The notes beneath the pieces are model-generated. The model made no database searches. It saw nothing but the letters and a program-made list of their open reading frames with translations, and was not told the origin of the DNA. A stretch of 64,000 nucleotides of DNA, taken from assembly GCA_016208495.1 (NCBI GenBank), contig JACQXX010000017.1:1-64000 (forward strand), read 5' to 3'. The first letter of the stretch is position 1. Each line of letters starts with the position of its first letter. The position numbers and the translations under genes were made by a program. Below, piece after piece: positions 3,583-57,011 of the stretch. Source of the stretch: Acidobacteriota bacterium. GTDB lineage: Bacteria; Acidobacteriota; Blastocatellia; Chloracidobacteriales; Chloracidobacteriaceae.

Positions 3583-6500
3583 ATGCACGTTTTCAAATCG
3601 CCATATCGTCGGATATGGTCGCCAGTATTAATGTTTTTGGTATTGATGGGGCTGTATATATCGCCAAAGACCGTGTTTCAGCCCAGACTTGTAAAAGCAG
3701 CAACAACACCGGTTTTCATCAATGAAATTCACTATGACAACACTGGGACGGATGCTGGAGAAGCAATAGAAGTCGCCGGACCCGCCGGAACCGATCTGAC
3801 CGGATGGACCATTGTGCTGTACAACGGCTCAGGTGGAGTGACTTACGACACCGGGAGAAGCAATAGAAGTCGCCGGACCCGCCGGAACCGATCTGACCGG
3901 ATGGACCATTGTGCTGTACAACGGCTCAGGTGGAGTGACTTACGACACCGATGCTTTGACCGGAATGATTCCCAATCAGTCAAATGGCTTTGGAACGATT
4001 AGTTTATCTTATCCAACAAACGGGATTCAGAATGGACCACCTGATGGAATTGCATTGGTGAATCCATCAAGTGTGGTGGTGCAGTTCTTGAGTTATGAAG
4101 GATCTTTCACTGCAACCAACGGTCCAGCCAATGGCATGACCAGCGTGGATATTGGCGTGAGCGAAAATGGGTCAGAAGCAGTAGGGATGTCGCTTCAGTT
4201 AATGGGCACTGGGGTGTGCTACGAGAGCTTTACCTGGGTCAGCCCGGCGACAGCGACACCTGGCGCCGTAAACAACAGTCAGACATTCGGGTGCGGTGCA
4301 GTGAATGCGCCAATTGTGCCCACTTGCCCAACCACTGTTTCGGCTGATTTCGGGGTTGGCACGACGGCGATGGTAAGTGCCACCGACTCAGACAGTATTG
4401 TGAATGGTGCTTCGATTACAAGTACACCTGTTCCAGGAATTACACTGGGCAGCATTGTTGCTGCGGGTACAGATGGCGGCACCTTAACTGCCGTTTTGAC
4501 GGTTTCAGCCGCGACTGCCGCTGGAACTTACCCGGTAACCATCACTTACACCAACAATGAATCCCAAATGGCAACCTGTAATATCACGGTTACAGTTGTC
4601 CAGGTGATTCCAATCCACATGATTCAGGGTCCAGGGAATACATCACCGCTGACAGGTTCGGTGACGACTGAAGGCATTGTGACTGCGATCCGCTTTAACA
4701 ATGGCTTTTTCCTTCAGACCGAAGACGCTTTCATTGACGCAGATCCCGATACATCGCAAGGGATATTTGTCTTTACCAATACGGCCCCGCCGGGAACCGC
4801 TGCCGTTGGGAATAAAGTTCGGGTCACTGGAACGGTGACTGAATTTACCCCATCGGCTGACCCATTCCAGCTTTCGGTGACTCAGTTGACCAGCCCGATG
4901 GTGATGCAGCTTTCCACTGGAAACCCACTGCCAACCCCGATTGCCATTTCGTCAATCAATGGGGCGGGTCCAGTTGATCAACTGGAAAAATATGAAAGCA
5001 TGCGGGTTACATTCGCATCACTGAAAGTGTGTGCTCCAACCGCCGGGTTTTTGACTGAGTCAAATGCGACTTCGTCAACGGTGGGTTCAAGCAATACGGG
5101 CGTGTTTGCGGCTGTGATCAACGATGGGACACCACGTCCATTCCGTGAACCGGGGATCGAAGACCCAGAGCCAGCCCCACCTGGATTTACCATTCCGCCG
5201 CTTCCACGCTGGGACGGTAATCAGGAACGGATTCGGGTGGATAGTGAAGGTCAGATGGGCGCCTTGCCGCCAATCGAAGTCTGCACCGGTGCCATCGTTT
5301 CAAACCTGACCGGGCCGCTCTATTACGACTTCCGGGCATATACCCTGTTGCCTGATCCTGGTGCCCGCACCATTACCAACAATGATTGTGCGGCGATTCC
5401 AGTTCCAATTCCAGGTCCAAACGAATTGACGATTGGTTCGGCTAATCTGCAACGCTTCTTTAATGACGTGGCGGATGATGAATCTGGTGATCCGACAGGC
5501 GAAATTGATGAGCCTGTGCTGACCATGACTGCCTATCAAGGCCGGTTAAACAAACTGTCGTTGATGGTGCGCAATGTGATGAACTCGCCAGACATCATTG
5601 GCTTCCAGGAAGTCGAAAACATTGAGGTTCTGACCGACATTGCCAACAAGATCAACAGTGACCTTGACCAGCCTGGGTTGTACTCGGCGTTTCTTGAAGA
5701 AGGAAATGACGTTGGCGGCATTGACGTCGGGTTTTTGGTCAACAAATCCAAGATTGAAATTTTGAATGTGACCCAGGAAGGACTGGACGAAGTTCTGGTC
5801 AATCCTGATACCACAACGGATCCGTTAAATGACCGTCCATCACTGGTGCTGGAAGCTCGTGTAAAAGCGACCAACTATAAAATTACCGTGATCAACAATC
5901 ACCTGCGCTCCTTGAATGGAATCAACAGCACGGCAGCAGGTCCGAATGGCTGGCCAACAGGTGGTGAACGTGTCCGAGCCAAGCGCAAAGCCCAGGCTGA
6001 ATATACGGCCAATCTGGTTCAGGCGCGGATTGATGCCAATCCGGGTGAACGCATTATCCTGGTTGGCGATTTTAACGCCTTCCAGTTCAACGATGGATTT
6101 GTGGATTCAATTGGAACCATCAAGGGAACGCCGACGCCAGCCTCAATGGTGACCGCCAGCAGCCCGGATCTCGTGAACCCTGATTTGACCAACCTGATTG
6201 ATTTTGAAGATCCGGCGGAACGCTATTCCTTTGTCTTTGGCGGCCACGCTCAGACACTCGACCACGCGCTGGTAACGCCAAATCTCCTTGATGATTTTGT
6301 CCGCATCAACCATGGCCGGAACAATTCGGATTTCCCAGAAGGTCCAACCTTCCGAAACGATTTCAACCGGTCAGAACGGCTGTCAGACCACGATCCGCTC
6401 GTGGTGGCCTTTGACGCTTCAAGCGTTCAAAACGCGCTGCTGTATGTGGCCGATACCTCTAACAACCGCATCCAGAAATTTGATGGAACGACCTGGTCGG

Positions 6501-48948: not shown

Positions 48949-50964
48949 ATGTCACTGTTTGGCACTTCTTATAGCAAAGAAAAGGTTCTGAAATCAGCCG
49001 AAAAATATGTCCAGCAAGGAAAGCTTGATGCGGCCATCAAGGAATATAAGCGAATTTTGGAAGTTGAACCCCAGGATTTAAAAGTGGTGAGTTCATTGGC
49101 TGAACTTCATTCCCGCAGCAATCAGACACGGGAAGCCGTCGCCCTGTTTTTGCGAATTGCCGAACATTATGAACGAACCAGCCAGATACCCCAGGCAATT
49201 GCTATGTACCGCCGGATTTTTAAGATGGACATCAACAATTACCCGGCGGCAGTCACCCTGGCGGAACTCTATCGCCAGCAGGGGAATCTTCCCGAGGCGG
49301 TCCAGTTTTATTTAGGAGCGGCCAGTGCCTGCCGGCGGACCAACCAGATCCCGACCGCGATCAAAATGGCTCGCGAAGCGGTGTCGCTCGATCCGGAATC
49401 TATTCGTGCCCGAGTAGAACTGGCCGGGGTGCTCCATCTTTCCGAAGAATATGACGAAGCCCACGATCTCTATGTCCAGGCGGGCCGCGAATTTTTACGC
49501 AAGGGCCAAAACAACGAAGGATTGGAGTGCTTTCGGAAGGCCATGCTGGTCAAACCAGGGTCCAAACCAGCTTTAAAAGCCCTGACTGATATTTCACTCC
49601 AAATGGGGGACGCCAAAGGTGCAGTCCGCATGGTCAAACAGTTGTTGCTCAGTAATCCCCAGGATGTGGACCTGTTGATTTTACTTGGTCGGACGTGTTT
49701 GGGAGGAAGCCTCCTGGATGATGCCGAAGAGGCATTTACGACCCTGGTTCAGCTCGACCCCCAGCGGTATGAATATTTACTTGAAGTTGGGCGGCAGTTT
49801 CTGAAAATCGGAATGTTTGATCGTACCATTCAAACGGTTCAAAAATGTGCCGAGCACGTCGTTGCCCGAGGGCAAAAGAAAAAAGCCACCGCCATTTTAA
49901 AACAAGTGATTCAGTTGGATCCAAACCACCTGACCGCCATGCAAGTCCTGGCCGATGTGTATGACGGCGCCCGTGAGAGACAACAGGCCACAATGGTGAT
50001 GCAGGCCATCAAACCTGATGAAGACTTCGAAGACGATCTGGATCAATATAATTACAGCACTGAATTGCTTGAAAGCATGGTCCAGCAAAACCCGGCCTTT
50101 GCCCAGGCCCGGATTAAAATGCTGGAGGATATGGCTGTTCAGCAACCTGATTACCTGGAGGTCTGGCAACAACTCCGGCAAAACTACCTGGATAGCCAGC
50201 TCAAGGAAAAAGCAGCCAAAGCCTGTCTGGAACTGGCCCGGATTCAATTGGCCCGAGGAAATCAGGATGCCTCGGAAGCTTCAAAAGCTGAAGCCTATGA
50301 ACTGGATCCCGGACTCCGGCCTGTCCGTCCTATGATTCAGGTTGCCGAAGGTGAAAGCATACCGCTCACCGATATTATGCCGGATGTTGGAATTGTGGCG
50401 AATGTCGTTGCCTCAGCCGACGCTGGTGTGGCTGAAGATGACCAGACCGTGGCCCTCAAGGCGCTTCCAGGTACCTTTAACCGATATCTCACGGTGGATA
50501 AATTTCAGAAACGGTATGAAAGTCTCTGGACAGACCCGATTTATTCAACCGAACCGCTCTCACTCATCAAAATTCAGGTTGATAACTTTGTCGGCGTGGT
50601 TGAAGAAAACGAGGAAATCCGAGAATCCTACCTGCAGCCCATTGCCGAAACACTTCATGACGAAGTCAAAACACCAAATGCCTATATTGCCTACTGCGGA
50701 AACGCGACGTTTTTTGCCTTTTTCCCGAAAGTCCATCCTGAAACCATTGAACACCTCGCTGAATCAATGCGAAGCCGCATCGAATCGCTCTGGTTACCCC
50801 ATCCGGCCTCTGATGATCTTGATTGGGTAACGGCTTCAATCGCCACGGTGACTGCTATTCCCAGACAAGCCTCCCCAACGGTGTTGATCTCAGTGGTGAA
50901 TAGCGGGTTGACCAACGCCACGTCCCGAGGCGGGAACGTGGTTGTGACCTATGGAAAAGCCTGA
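48949..50964 (+). CDS. TPR protein with a degenerate GGDEF-like C-terminal domain
   Basis: 671 residues from the MSLFGTSYSKEK start, with GGAAGG upstream. Residues 1-440 are about a dozen TPR motifs (YVQQGKLDAAIKEYKRILEVEP, LAELYRQQGNLPEAVQFYLG). A linker rich in acidic residues leads to a C-terminal domain (about 510-670). That domain aligns in pattern with diguanylate cyclases: FQKRYESLW, LSLIKIQVDNF, the block YCGNATFFAFFP where GGDEF normally sits, TASIATVTAI, and a closing SRGGNVVVTYG. The GG(D/E)EF and metal Asp are absent, so it cannot be an active cyclase. It may be a scaffold or a nucleotide sensor. The next gene downstream is the phosphatase receptor. Confidence 0.8.
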   Translation: MSLFGTSYSKEKVLKSAEKYVQQGKLDAAIKEYKRILEVEPQDLKVVSSLAELHSRSNQTREAVALFLRIAEHYERTSQIPQAIAMYRRIFKMDINNYPAAVTLAELYRQQGNLPEAVQFYLGAASACRRTNQIPTAIKMAREAVSLDPESIRARVELAGVLHLSEEYDEAHDLYVQAGREFLRKGQNNEGLECFRKAMLVKPGSKPALKALTDISLQMGDAKGAVRMVKQLLLSNPQDVDLLILLGRTCLGGSLLDDAEEAFTTLVQLDPQRYEYLLEVGRQFLKIGMFDRTIQTVQKCAEHVVARGQKKKATAILKQVIQLDPNHLTAMQVLADVYDGARERQQATMVMQAIKPDEDFEDDLDQYNYSTELLESMVQQNPAFAQARIKMLEDMAVQQPDYLEVWQQLRQNYLDSQLKEKAAKACLELARIQLARGNQDASEASKAEAYELDPGLRPVRPMIQVAEGESIPLTDIMPDVGIVANVVASADAGVAEDDQTVALKALPGTFNRYLTVDKFQKRYESLWTDPIYSTEPLSLIKIQVDNFVGVVEENEEIRESYLQPIAETLHDEVKTPNAYIAYCGNATFFAFFPKVHPETIEHLAESMRSRIESLWLPHPASDDLDWVTASIATVTAIPRQASPTVLISVVNSGLTNATSRGGNVVVTYGKA

Positions 50965-50965
50965 A

Positions 50966-51290
50966 GGAATGAAGAATGAAGAATTGAGAATGAAGAATTG
51001 AGAATGACCCAAATTTTGCCCAAAATAGCACCACTTTGCTGAAAGATCAGTACCGACCAGATCGAGACACACCTCGTGACCAGGAAGCGGCCAGGTCATT
51101 GAGCGGAATCGAAATTCACCGAAATTGAGCCTTCGCGAACGCGAAACTGACTTCCAGTTTGTTCTTTATGTCCGTTATGTCCGTTATGTCCTTTGGTTTT
51201 GGGTTCAATCAATCATCCAGATGACCAAAACCGAGGAAAAGATCAGTATTTTGGGCGAAATTTGGGGAATGAAGAATGAAGAAACAGGGA
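50966..51290. repeat. GAATGAA array and inverted-repeat segment
   Basis: GAATGAA/GAATTGA words run at 50966-51004. Within 51006-51271, CCCAAATTTTGCCCAAAATA at the left (about 51007-51026) is an imperfect inverse of TATTTTGGGCGAAATTTGGG at the right (about 51248-51267). Further GAATGAAGAATGAAG words follow at 51268-51284. The inverted array is the coding repeat at 51383-51478. Confidence 0.75.
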
Positions 51291-51303
51291 TGACGGGTGT
51301 GGA

Positions 51304-54300
51304 ATGTCCAAATTAACCAATTTTATCCTTAGAGTGCGGTCCTTGACTGCGAAAACAACCACGTCATCCAGTATTTGGAATTCTTTATTCTCAATTCTTC
51401 ATTCTTCATTCTCAATTCTGCATTCTTTGTTCTGCATTCTTTGTTCTACATTCTTTGTTCTGCATTCTTCATTCTTTTTGCTGGCTCAACCTCAATCCAC
51501 CGCTTTTCAAGTCGGAGAGAAGCCACCAGATATTGCCGAGTACGGGTACCCAACCTTTCGCACCTACACCGACCGGGACGGATTGCCGCAAAACACCATC
51601 AATCAAGTCACCACAGATCGCAAAGGCTATCTTTGGATTGGCACTCAAAATGGAGCGGCGTTTTTTAATGGCCATCGCTGGACGGTGGTCAACCTGCAGG
51701 GTGGAACGTTATCAAATCGGGTTCGGGCACTCCTTCAATCGGCTGATGGGAGTTACTGGTTTGGCACCGAGGACAGCGGGTTGCTGCGAAAAAATGGAGA
51801 AAACTGGATTGTCTTTTCCCGCTTGAGCGGGGCGCTTCTTTCAGATGAAGTGAAATGCATGGTGGAGACAGTCACGCCAACCACGGCCAAAAGCACACTT
51901 TGGGTTGGAACGTCAGCCGGTCTGTCGTGCTTTGAAGGTGGAAAATGGAAGCACTATACGGCTGAAGATGGAACCCTGCCCAACAACCGGGTCATGTGTT
52001 TACTCCAAACCACCGGGGCAAATGGTTCACCGATTGTTTGGGCGGGAACTGAAGGCGGGGGATTGGTCAAGTTTGAAGACGGGACGTGGACCCGGCTTGA
52101 TACCAGTGCCATCGCCAGCAATGCCGTGTTGTCATTAATGGCCACCACGTCACCCAAAACCCAAGAGCAAACACTCTGGGTGGGGACGTCGGGCGGGCTG
52201 GCACGAGTGGACCAGGGCACCTGGACTCTGTATGACATTAACAATGGATTGCCAAGTAATGTGGTTTTAAGTTTGCTTGAAACCACACTCCCAGATGGGA
52301 CGCCGACAATTTGGGTTGGAACGTATGGCGGGGGATTGGCCCGCTTTGAACAGGGTCGGTGGATTACGTTTAATACCAAAAACAGTACCTTACCCAATAA
52401 CGGAGTGCGAAGCCTGATCGAAACCAGATCTGAGACCGGAACCCGATTGTTATGGGTAGGAACCTATGGCGGGGGATTGGCCCGGTTTGAACAAAGCCAG
52501 TGGATTGGGTTCGACACCAAAACGGGTCTTCCCAATGATTTGGTGTATTCGTTTCTTGAATCGAAAACCCCGACCGGTGAATACGGGTTGTGGTTGGGAA
52601 CTGGCGCCGGGCTGGTCTATTACCTCAACGGAGAAATCGAGACCTACACGATTTCCCCTGGCAAATTAAACTCCGATGTGATTTATGCGCTTCTTGAGAC
52701 CCGGACACCGGAAGGTTCTCCCGTCTTATGGATTGGAACCTACGGCGGCGGGCTTTCCCGTTTTGATGGGAAAACCTGGCAAACCTTTACCGCTCCGGAC
52801 CTTCCCAGCAACATTATTTATTGCCTTCATGAGACCCGATCACCCGCCGGGAACTCCGTGTTGTGGGTTGGCACTGATAATGGACTGGCCAGATTTGAAG
52901 ATGGCGTCTGGCAAACATTTCAGATTGATGTGGGTCTGCCGGATAATGTGATCTATGGTTTGTTTCAAACGAAATCACCCTCCGGAGTTTCTACGCTCTG
53001 GGTGGCAACCCGCAACGGACTGGGGGCTTTTCAAAATGGGCAATGGACCAGTTTTGGTTCCGAGAATGGTCTTCCCAAAACGGCGATTTACAGTTTTCTG
53101 GAAACCAATTCATCAGGCTCGCAACCAGTTTTATGGATTGGAACTGGGGGGGCTGGGGTTTACACACTTGATCTGACGGGTTGGTACGGACCTGCCGCGC
53201 TAAAAACCATAAAACCATTGCCCGCCGAAATTCGAGGGACGGTTTTTCGAATGCTGGCAACTCGAACTGGGGCGCTGTATTTAACCACGAACACCGGTGT
53301 GGTTCGTCTGGTCCCGGCTGGTGGTGCTGCAATGGGAGGGCCGGGCTACCAGATTCAACGAGTATTTACCAATCAAGATGGGTTGCCCGGGGTTGAGTGC
53401 CTGAGAGGGGCTGCCCTGCAGGATCACAAAGGCCGGATTTGGGCCGGGACTGCTGCCGGTGCTGCTTTGTTTGATCCAGCCAAAGAGTTAAACGATACCT
53501 CCTTGAAACCGTTGATGATCGAACGCATTAGCGTCAACGGGCAAGTGATCGAACCTGCTCAAAATCCGGTTGTCTGGTCCTATGACCGGGACAATGTGGT
53601 GTTTGAATATGCACTGTTGAGTTACTTTCGCGAAACTGACACCACTTTCCAGGTTCAGTTAATCGGGTATGACAAAAAGCCGACGGCCTGGACGACCGAC
53701 GCCAAAAAGGAATACACCAACCTGGAACCAAAGCGCTATACCTTTCAGGTATGGGGCAAAGACTATGCCGGGAATATCTCTGGACCGGTTTCTTTCTCGT
53801 TTGAAATCAAACCGGCGCCGTGGAATACCTGGTATGCCTATGTTTTTTATTTGTTTGTGATTATCGGTGGGGTGTATTTAGCGGTACAAACCCGAATCAA
53901 GACGTTGCAAAACCGGGCTGAAGCCCTGGAACGAGCCGTCCAGGAGCGAACGGCGGAAGTGGTTCGCCAGAAAGATGAACTTTCCGCCCAAAATGCCGAG
54001 ATCATTCGTCAGCGCGATGAAATCACTGAAAAGAATCACGAATTGGAATTGCGCTCTCAGGAAATTCAGGAAAAAAACACCAAGATCATTGATAGCATTC
54101 TCTATGCCGAACGAATCCAACAGGCGACGTTGCCGTATCGCGAACGCATTGACCAGTCCCTGCGAGAATACTTTATCTTATTCTATCCAAAGGATATTGT
54201 GTCGGGCGACTTTTACTGGTTTCACTATGCCGACGGCATCAGCATTATTGCCTGTGCCGACTGTACAGGTCACGGCGTGCCCGGCGCCTTTATGTCCATG

Positions 54301-54876
54301 ATCGGTAACAATCTGCTCAACCAAATCGTGATCGAGAATCGAATCCACGATCCAGCCCTCATTCTTGAAACCATGCACGGAGGCATCCGGCGGGCACTCA
54401 AACAGGACTCCGCCGAGACTGAATCCCAGGATGGAATGGATGTGGCGCTCTGCCGAATTGAGCGTGAAACCGGACAGGTTGTATTTGCTGGTGCCAAACG
54501 CCCGCTCTATCTGATTGATGAGCAGGGTGAATTTATTGAAATCAAAGGGGATACCAAATCAATTGGCGGAAAGCAGAAAGAGGCTCGCCGTACCTTTACC
54601 AACCATGAAATTCAAATTGGCAAAGGGGTTACACTCTACATGGCGACCGATGGGTATGGTGATCAATCGGGTGAGATTTCACCAAAATTTGGCTCCCGCC
54701 GGTTCAAAGAATTTCTGAAATCAATTTCCTATCTCAGCATGGAAGATCAATATGTTGCTCTGATTCACGAATTAAAAAACCATCAGGGCGCCGAACCCCA
54801 ACGCGATGACATTACCGTGATCGGAATTCGGATTCCTGGAAAAAAACGGAAGGCGAGTGAACTTGTGAAGAAGTGA
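51304..54876 (+). CDS. Propeller receptor with SpoIIE-type PP2C phosphatase output
   Basis: 1190 residues. The signal peptide (residues 26-61, basic lead 3-17) is built from a 7-residue periodic repeat (ILHSSFS, ILHSLFC, ILCSTFF, VLHSSFF), encoded by an ATTCTTC/ATTCTCA heptamer array. Residues 75-720 are propeller blades (WVGT, GLPNDLVYSFL). A Y_Y_Y domain (to about 835) and a membrane span (about 845-865) come next, then a coiled coil (870-935). The SpoIIE/PPM domain (about 950-1180) has metal Asp in ACADCTGHGVPGAFMS, plus DGMDVALCRIE and ATDGYGDQSGE. It would dephosphorylate Ser/Thr, probably of an anti-anti-sigma protein. No partner kinase or sigma-factor gene is adjacent. Confidence 0.92.
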   Translation: MSKLTNFILRVRSLTAKTTTSSSIWNSLFSILHSSFSILHSLFCILCSTFFVLHSSFFLLAQPQSTAFQVGEKPPDIAEYGYPTFRTYTDRDGLPQNTINQVTTDRKGYLWIGTQNGAAFFNGHRWTVVNLQGGTLSNRVRALLQSADGSYWFGTEDSGLLRKNGENWIVFSRLSGALLSDEVKCMVETVTPTTAKSTLWVGTSAGLSCFEGGKWKHYTAEDGTLPNNRVMCLLQTTGANGSPIVWAGTEGGGLVKFEDGTWTRLDTSAIASNAVLSLMATTSPKTQEQTLWVGTSGGLARVDQGTWTLYDINNGLPSNVVLSLLETTLPDGTPTIWVGTYGGGLARFEQGRWITFNTKNSTLPNNGVRSLIETRSETGTRLLWVGTYGGGLARFEQSQWIGFDTKTGLPNDLVYSFLESKTPTGEYGLWLGTGAGLVYYLNGEIETYTISPGKLNSDVIYALLETRTPEGSPVLWIGTYGGGLSRFDGKTWQTFTAPDLPSNIIYCLHETRSPAGNSVLWVGTDNGLARFEDGVWQTFQIDVGLPDNVIYGLFQTKSPSGVSTLWVATRNGLGAFQNGQWTSFGSENGLPKTAIYSFLETNSSGSQPVLWIGTGGAGVYTLDLTGWYGPAALKTIKPLPAEIRGTVFRMLATRTGALYLTTNTGVVRLVPAGGAAMGGPGYQIQRVFTNQDGLPGVECLRGAALQDHKGRIWAGTAAGAALFDPAKELNDTSLKPLMIERISVNGQVIEPAQNPVVWSYDRDNVVFEYALLSYFRETDTTFQVQLIGYDKKPTAWTTDAKKEYTNLEPKRYTFQVWGKDYAGNISGPVSFSFEIKPAPWNTWYAYVFYLFVIIGGVYLAVQTRIKTLQNRAEALERAVQERTAEVVRQKDELSAQNAEIIRQRDEITEKNHELELRSQEIQEKNTKIIDSILYAERIQQATLPYRERIDQSLREYFILFYPKDIVSGDFYWFHYADGISIIACADCTGHGVPGAFMSMIGNNLLNQIVIENRIHDPALILETMHGGIRRALKQDSAETESQDGMDVALCRIERETGQVVFAGAKRPLYLIDEQGEFIEIKGDTKSIGGKQKEARRTFTNHEIQIGKGVTLYMATDGYGDQSGEISPKFGSRRFKEFLKSISYLSMEDQYVALIHELKNHQGAEPQRDDITVIGIRIPGKKRKASELVKK

Positions 54877-56254: not shown

Positions 56255-56752
56255 ATGCTGAAAAAATTCTTGTTTGCGATCACATTCGTGCTGGCTACTT
56301 CATTTTCAACGCTGGCACAGGATCCGCCGGAGAACGAAGTGGTGGCCGGATATACCTATTTGCGCGGTGATGAGTTGAAGGCAAACTTAAACGGTTTCAA
56401 TTTTTCCTACACCCGGTATCTGAATGATAACTTTGGGGTTACTTCCGAAATTGGGGCTAACTTTGACTCCGGCATCAATACGTTCACGTACTTGATCGGC
56501 CCGCAAATCGCGGCCAATCGGGGGGGAAGAGTGTCACCCTTTGCTCATATTTTGGTCGGAGGCGGGCGAGTGAGTATTGAAGACTTCGGATCCAGCAATG
56601 GGTTTGCCGTTGCTCTTGGCGGAGGGGTTGATGTAAAACTGAATGATAAAGTATCCATTCGACCTATTCAGATAGATTACCTTCCGATCAGATTTAACGG
56701 AGGCACAATCCACAATGGCCGCGTCGGTGCCAGGATAAACTTCCGATTCTGA
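56255..56752 (+). CDS. Outer-membrane beta-barrel protein
   Basis: 165 residues from the MLKKFLFA start, after GGAG at 11 bases. The signal peptide (1-21) is cleaved after STLAQ. The mature part shows eight or so alternating amphipathic strands (VVAGYTYLRG, FNFSYTRYL, GVTSEIGANF, FAHILVGGGRV), ending in an aromatic Phe (RINFRF), the classic outer-membrane insertion signal. It belongs to the small OmpA/OmpX-like barrels. It is divergent from a LysR regulator. The stop codon is followed immediately by a repeat array. Confidence 0.88.
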   Translation: MLKKFLFAITFVLATSFSTLAQDPPENEVVAGYTYLRGDELKANLNGFNFSYTRYLNDNFGVTSEIGANFDSGINTFTYLIGPQIAANRGGRVSPFAHILVGGGRVSIEDFGSSNGFAVALGGGVDVKLNDKVSIRPIQIDYLPIRFNGGTIHNGRVGARINFRF

Positions 56753-57011
56753 GGTGACAAAGTGACAAGGTGACATCTGACAAGGTGACAAGGTGACATC
56801 TGACAAGGTGACAAGGTGACATCTGACAAGGTGACATCTGACAAGATGACAAGGTGACATCTGACAAGGTGACAAGGTGACAAGGTGACATCTGACCAAA
56901 TGACAACGTGACAGAATGATCTATTGTCACCTTGTCAGATGTCACCTTGTCATTCAGTCACCTTGTCATTTGTCACCCGGTCACCCTGTCATTCAGTCAC
57001 CTTGTCACCTC
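56753..57011. repeat. Inverted GGTGACAAGG / CACCTTGTC arrays
   Basis: A left block of GTGACAAGGTGACATCTGAC words (56753-56905) is followed by a right block of the reverse-complement words CACCTTGTC and GTCACCTTGTCAT (56932-57011), joined by about 27 bases. The two arms fill the whole space between the convergent beta-barrel and trans-sulfuration genes, leaving 1 bp before each stop. They would form a long hairpin in either transcript. Confidence 0.93.

Follow-up and report, generated by a model that had tools for sequence, protein, structure and literature searches.

The receptor gene and the repeats at its 5' end

The window analysed here comprises 64,000 nt of contig JACQXX010000017.1, within the 8.38-Mb genome GCA_016208495.1 (177 contigs), and carries a gene for a large multidomain receptor whose features are collected in Table 1. 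Its Reg_prop beta-propeller resembles by PDB match that of the hybrid two-component sensor 4a2l, and a weak match to the Y_Y_Y domain was also obtained. A transmembrane (TM) helix is followed by a coiled-coil-like stretch and by a SpoIIE-type phosphatase. Only two stretches of the protein are strongly hydrophobic, namely aa 42-60, which are mostly encoded by a heptamer array, and the TM helix. The latter would put the propeller outside, in the periplasm, and the phosphatase inside, in the cytoplasm, and a receptor so arranged would need an N-terminal signal. The receptor belongs to a large paralogous family with 40 matches within its own genome, and an N-terminal hydrophobic stretch was found in all 15 scorable members (the receptor included), with best 12-residue Kyte-Doolittle means of 1.85-3.37. 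For the receptor this value is 2.67 (core LFCILCSTFFVL), and it drops to 0.38 when the protein is trimmed to residues 59 onward. The sister-gene leaders that we inspected are ordinary hydrophobic stretches that are not heptamer-coded and bear no relation to the array. A contig scan for receptor orthologues returned only distant Bacteroidetes-type relatives.

The array itself consists of ATTCTTC-type units, for which Tandem Repeats Finder gives a period of 7 and 14.0 copies (51379-51476; periods 14 and 21 are also reported). Across the window, ATTCTTCATTCTTC-like matches number 37 versus 8.3 +/- 2.8 in shuffled sequence, and no shuffle attained 37. Translated, the units read SLFS-ILHSSFS-ILHSLFC-ILCSTFF-VLHSSFF. 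The original prediction assigned residues 26-61 to heptamer units, which is correct for codons 26-58 (51380-51477), whereas the last three residues, LLA (51478-51486), are non-repeat. Its statement that the array is free of stops in the used frame holds as well, but this property is not special to that frame, as all three are open. In any tandem heptamer the same seven codons are cycled in every frame, and 134 of 144 frames of array translations proved to be without a stop; the strand opposite an ATTCTTC array carries stops (TGA). A pure ATTCTTC array, read as ILHSSFF, is moderately hydrophobic with a 12-residue maximum of 1.85. It is because these repeats are stop-free and give a hydrophobic cycle in all three frames that such an array is usable as a leader.

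The receptor array is hydrophobic, its 12-residue maxima being 2.67 in the used frame and 2.58 and 2.40 in the other two. It is the most hydrophobic of the arrays tested for this property, and with 14 units the longest of 304 sampled arrays (median 4). Relative to pure ATTCTTC it has 16 substitutions, with no more than two identical units in a row, and includes the unit variants GTTCTGC and GTTCTAC, which are absent elsewhere among the sampled units; Cys, Thr or Leu stand at some His and Ser positions of the cycle. Two neutral simulations matched its hydrophobicity in 2.5-2.8% of runs (P about 0.025-0.028, for a measure chosen post hoc). We do not accept from this that selection sharpened the hydrophobic core, since the weak P value and the hydrophobicity of all three frames, which makes the effect not frame-specific, amount at most to a hint of selection.

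Upstream of the array lies its reverse complement. The TPR/GGDEF-like gene upstream ends at 50964, and directly there the outer piece of an arm on the minus strand begins. An inner piece follows, of which 51267-51283 is complementary to 51395-51411 at 17 of 17 nt, and 95 nt separate the end of this inner arm (51284) from the plus-strand coding arm. A MITE-like dispersed element of 259 bp divides the 5' arm; about 2.76 Mb of sampled sequence contained 9 near-full copies of it, most of them with ATTCTTC heptamer arrays on both sides (besides the window, in the sampled stretches L045, L048, L051, L053, L061, L066, L089 and L108). The sequence GAATGA, itself repeat sequence, flanks the element here and in most copies. 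With its complementary arms the locus thus presents an inverted-repeat, dispersed structure. The reverse-complement array noted in the original prediction does exist, at 50964-51005 and, as a separate second part, at 51267-51283, but it belongs to a genome-wide family of inverted pairs and is not only a local feature.

Two further repeat structures were seen in the window: a large inverted pair of octamer-type arrays at 56752-57010 (AGGTGACA / TTGTCACC), similar in layout with an 8-nt unit, and an exact 97-bp tandem duplication at 3757-3950 (2.0 copies, 100% identical).

Table 1. Features of the receptor locus (window coordinates) and of the heptamer inserts in the NRPS loop (coordinates of the sampled stretches named).
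Feature	Position	Strand	Remarks
5' arm, outer piece	50964..51005	-	33 nt 97% complementary to 51379-51411
MITE-like dispersed element, 259 bp	51008..51266	.	20-nt inverted ends CCCAAATTTTGCCCAAAATA / TATTTTGGGCGAAATTTGGG; splits 5' arm
5' arm, inner piece	51264..51284	-	ATTCTTC on minus strand; pairs with first coding-array units
Shine-Dalgarno-like stretch AGGGATGACGGGTGTG	51286..51301	+	before ATG 51304; duplex -7.6 kcal/mol
Receptor gene	51304..54876	+	1190 aa; putative signal peptide, propeller, TM helix, phosphatase
Start codon and putative n-region MSKLTNFILRVRSLTAKTTTSSSIW	51304..51378	+	25 aa, basic; in loop between inverted heptamer arms
ATTCTTC-type array, 14 units	51380..51477	+	in-frame codons 26-58; hydrophobic core; 3' arm of palindromic element
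Putative c-region LLA, then Q	51478..51486	+	non-repeat; L at -3, A at -1
Reg_prop beta-propeller	about aa 80-700		Pfam and PDB matches
TM helix WYAYVFYLFVIIGGVYLAV	aa 843-861, 53830..53886	+	hydrophobicity
SpoIIE-type phosphatase	aa 981-1177		Pfam match; 6k4e-like by PDB match
NRPS-loop inserts	L121 4169-13057 (aa 1274-1355, 2410-2478); L128 14487-19985 (aa 640-719)

The heptamer family across the genome

A search with the (ATTCTTC)3 21-mer, allowing up to 2 mismatches, gave 508 matches in the genome that contains the receptor, 0-3 in each of 57 relatives and 0 in the nearest relative whose genome is similar in size; this family is thus a lineage-specific expansion. The AACCCTG heptamer, on the other hand, has 2197 matches in the same genome and 1819 in the nearest relative. 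As AACCCTG is abundant in both genera and ATTCTTC in this genome alone, heptamer units turn over between lineages.

The arrays were studied further in a sample of about 2.76 Mb (33% of the genome) that contained 304 of them, a density that is not a genome average because many of the sampled stretches were picked around arrays. Genes were called with a simple codon-score ORF caller; since this caller over-extends starts, cases of arrays inside genes were read by eye. In about 1.98 Mb of sampled sequence, 76% of it coding, 229 of 256 arrays were intergenic. Neighbouring arrays within 500 bp of each other showed a strict orientation, with 59 pairs in the '-+' arrangement (ATTCTTC strands pointing outward) versus 0 in the '+-' arrangement, and from this we conclude that the arrays are the arms of palindromic elements. 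The spacers between arms show more structure than do random sequences (mean fold z of -2.0 versus -0.1), and 15 of 48 of them hold a further tandem heptamer run, as opposed to 17 of 480 random stretches. Several elements are built of nested layers, for example GTGGTTA/TAACCAC within GAAGAAT/ATTCTTC. Onion-like palindromes with ATTCTTC outer arms and AACCACT inner arms were also noted in three of the sampled stretches (L052 13549-13699, L124 677-813 and L122 7024-7158), where they have in common a core like CTTCGAAAGTATTGATTTC.

Arrays also occur in frame within other genes. The gene for the apolipoprotein N-acyltransferase Lnt (L145 4682-6529) has an in-frame heptamer insert at about aa 205-262, between LNT_N and CN_hydrolase, which consists of GQGTGDRGQ... 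plus ILHSSFSILNSSFI, the latter directly before a hydrophobic helix. In NRPS adenylation domains, paired heptamer elements are inserted in frame three times in one and the same loop, from ERF/EKF to LYRTGD, so that the distance from GG to the end of YRTGD is 69-82 residues versus 38 in the uninterrupted module of L129 (roughly 30-45 residues added). In-frame inserts were likewise found in a sister propeller protein and in the N-termini of a HemW-like and a P-type-ATPase-like protein (both named by eye). Inserts such as that in Lnt suggest that these arrays are translated within real proteins of the genome, and among them the putative signal peptide of the receptor is the case in which the inserted peptide falls where a function is needed.

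In 57 cases arrays run with an open frame into downstream genes. The idea that many genes have array-coded signals was rejected nonetheless, for in nearly all of these cases the start follows the array, and one candidate, L102 935-962, proved to be an ordinary signal peptide that resembles the repeat by chance.

A putative repeat-coded signal peptide and competing explanations

That the start codon and a basic lead precede the array, as had been proposed, is upheld by the Shine-Dalgarno (SD) evidence. ATG 51304 has the best SD duplex of the possible starts, and 88% of 110 unambiguous starts and 98% of random stretches have one that is weaker or equal. The alternatives GTG 51334 (+2.8 kcal/mol), TTG 51427 and TTG 51478 (+1.4 kcal/mol each) have no SD, and TTG 51343 is intermediate at -4.4 kcal/mol. 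Between the array and the propeller TTG 51478 is the sole start, and its use would leave no hydrophobic segment. A true start after the array had been named beforehand as evidence against a repeat-coded signal, and no credible one exists there; SD evidence and signal evidence thus agree in placing the receptor start 5' of the array. The other counter-evidence named, a relative with the same leader peptide in non-repeat codons, was sought by homologue searches in this genome and in others and was not found.

Judged by rule, the leader has the tripartite layout of a Sec-type (signal peptidase I) signal, with basic residues at K3, R10, R12 and K17 of the n-region, although it has a long n-region and, at -3, the less common residue L. 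Leaders of other family members end in A-Q too (VFAQ, GLAQ, VSAQ), and the LLA c-region is probably a leftover of the native signal peptide. The n-region has a slightly non-coding codon score of -0.08 per codon, as expected for recruited DNA and equally for untranslated DNA. No other copy of the loop that holds the start and n-region was found in the sampled genome (about 2.76 Mb). The RNA of 51250-51490 is predicted to fold strongly (z = -4.3), with the inner arm pairing to the first coding-array units, and both the SD stretch and ATG 51304 sit inside the predicted hairpin, i.e. the start region would be base-paired.

We consider it likely, with a probability of roughly 0.77, that the gene has a palindromic heptamer element over its 5' end and takes from it the start, the n-region and the h-region of a putative signal peptide. 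Under this model an element of inverted ATTCTTC arrays would overlie the 5' end of the receptor gene, and translation would begin at ATG 51304 in the loop of the element to give the basic n-region. The 14-unit 3' arm would then be read as the hydrophobic h-region, and the short c-region, HSSFFLLA/Q, would offer a possible signal peptidase I cut. The element would have replaced a native leader, of which LLA/Q would be the remnant. Translation, export and cleavage of the leader are what we infer from the sequence.

The original prediction spoke of a selfish repeat recruited as an export signal. The leader core is indeed written in a dispersed heptamer, but an equally good reading is that growth or insertion carried the element over the native start and that this was tolerated, its outward strand being stop-free and hydrophobic. 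In-frame inserts, which this genome tolerates at several places that are not signals, favour tolerance first and use second. On this evidence the repeat invasion is one that the gene tolerates and probably employs as a Sec signal.

It is unlikely that the element instead destroyed the native leader and left a broken or mislocalised copy of the gene whose open frame is accidental. Such a fate would fit the many places at which arrays, being stop-free in every frame, run open into downstream genes, and the loss of one member could be tolerable in a genome with so many family matches. However, in nearly all the other open-frame cases a credible start follows the array, whereas at that place the receptor has only the SD-less TTG 51478, and here the ATG before the array comes with a strong SD, a basic n-region and the right frame of three. 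The 1132 codons 3' of the array are moreover open and coding-like, which also speaks against a broken gene. Very unlikely is an internal start at TTG 51427 or 51478, which would turn most or all of the array into untranslated leader RNA folded onto the upstream arm; the strong predicted hairpin and the other genes of this genome that begin just past such arrays agree with it, yet both codons lack an SD, TTG 51478 leaves no signal, and with TTG 51427 the h-region would still consist of repeat codons while the basic n-region would be lost.

Two other prospects concern the unit number. A phase-variation switch, in which the gain or loss of units shifts the frame and the receptor is made only at a fitting unit number, appears quite improbable, even though a 7-nt unit in a 5' coding region fits a contingency locus in both unit and place. 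Upstream of the array, one of the two alternative frames offers no start at all and the other just TTG 51375, which is not a good one; gaining or losing one or two units would therefore silence the receptor, whereas three heptamers equal one heptapeptide, and a three-unit change would add or remove one heptapeptide with the frame kept. Against a switch stands the impurity of the array described above, by which slippage would be slowed. Distinctly unlikely, if slightly less so, is the more elaborate proposal that the whole leader (SD, start, n-region and h-region) derives from one palindromic element whose tandem arm would continue to serve as a switch of frame or as a gate formed by RNA structure, with unit number tuning the arrival of the sensor at the envelope.

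Related systems and significance

The nearest parallel to a signal peptide drawn from a palindromic element is YPO1552 of Yersinia, part of whose predicted signal peptide comes from the palindromic repeat RU-2/YAPL (Delihas 2007, PMC2759123; PMC2229807) and whose relatives have unrelated ordinary signals (Delihas 2007, PMC2759123). The receptor resembles it on both counts. In contrast to the tandem heptamer array found here, RU-2 is a single 168-bp mobile element, and it gives residues 1-30 of the 41-residue YPO1552 signal, whereas here the units make up nearly all of the hydrophobic core in the leader of a large receptor with several domains.

Heptamer arrays have also been described before. 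As MacGregor 2015 (PMC4679880) describes, TAACTGA direct repeats are mostly intergenic in Beggiatoaceae, Cyanobacteria and Bacteroidetes, often near start codons, with some within ORFs, mostly at protein ends; the sections consulted describe no signal-peptide use of them. Both families form mainly intergenic arrays of 7 nt in which one strand has stops in all frames and the other an open cycle (LSVISYQ in TAACTGA). The unit here is ATTCTTC with its variants, which sets it outside the TAACTGA family, and the MacGregor genome contains a single indirect repeat beside 169 direct sets, in contrast to the common inverted pairs and the several coexisting, nested unit families seen here. Palindromic dispersed repeats in frame within protein-coding genes are likewise known from Rickettsia as hairpins of 105-146 bp (Ogata et al. 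2000, cited in PMC2229807); these are not tandem heptamer arrays, and the text consulted gives them no signal-peptide role. Thymine-rich non-coding DNA is reported (PMC7005711) to encode hydrophobic segments readily and to be a source of new membrane proteins, although that work concerns de novo emerging sequences in yeast and not a leader for export carried by an old gene. We found no report of such a case in the present lineage in the open-access literature. Repeat-derived signals, heptamer arrays in ORFs and palindromic elements within genes are already known; the receptor brings them together, with tandem heptamer arms as the putative h-region of a large protein.

The receptor leader would be a clean example in which tandem repeats of non-coding origin have turned into a segment that an old protein needs, in a family of repeats that is confined to one species among the genomes compared. 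That every frame on one strand of an ATTCTTC array is both open and hydrophobic indicates how easy such a step may be. With dozens of array arms abutting gene starts and several in-frame inserts, both the frequency and the cost of repeat invasion become measurable in this genome. A whole-genome scan also returned long open frames through ILHSSFF-like arrays at C148:44809, C116:145556, C83:63973 and C51:11511, which we list as candidates.
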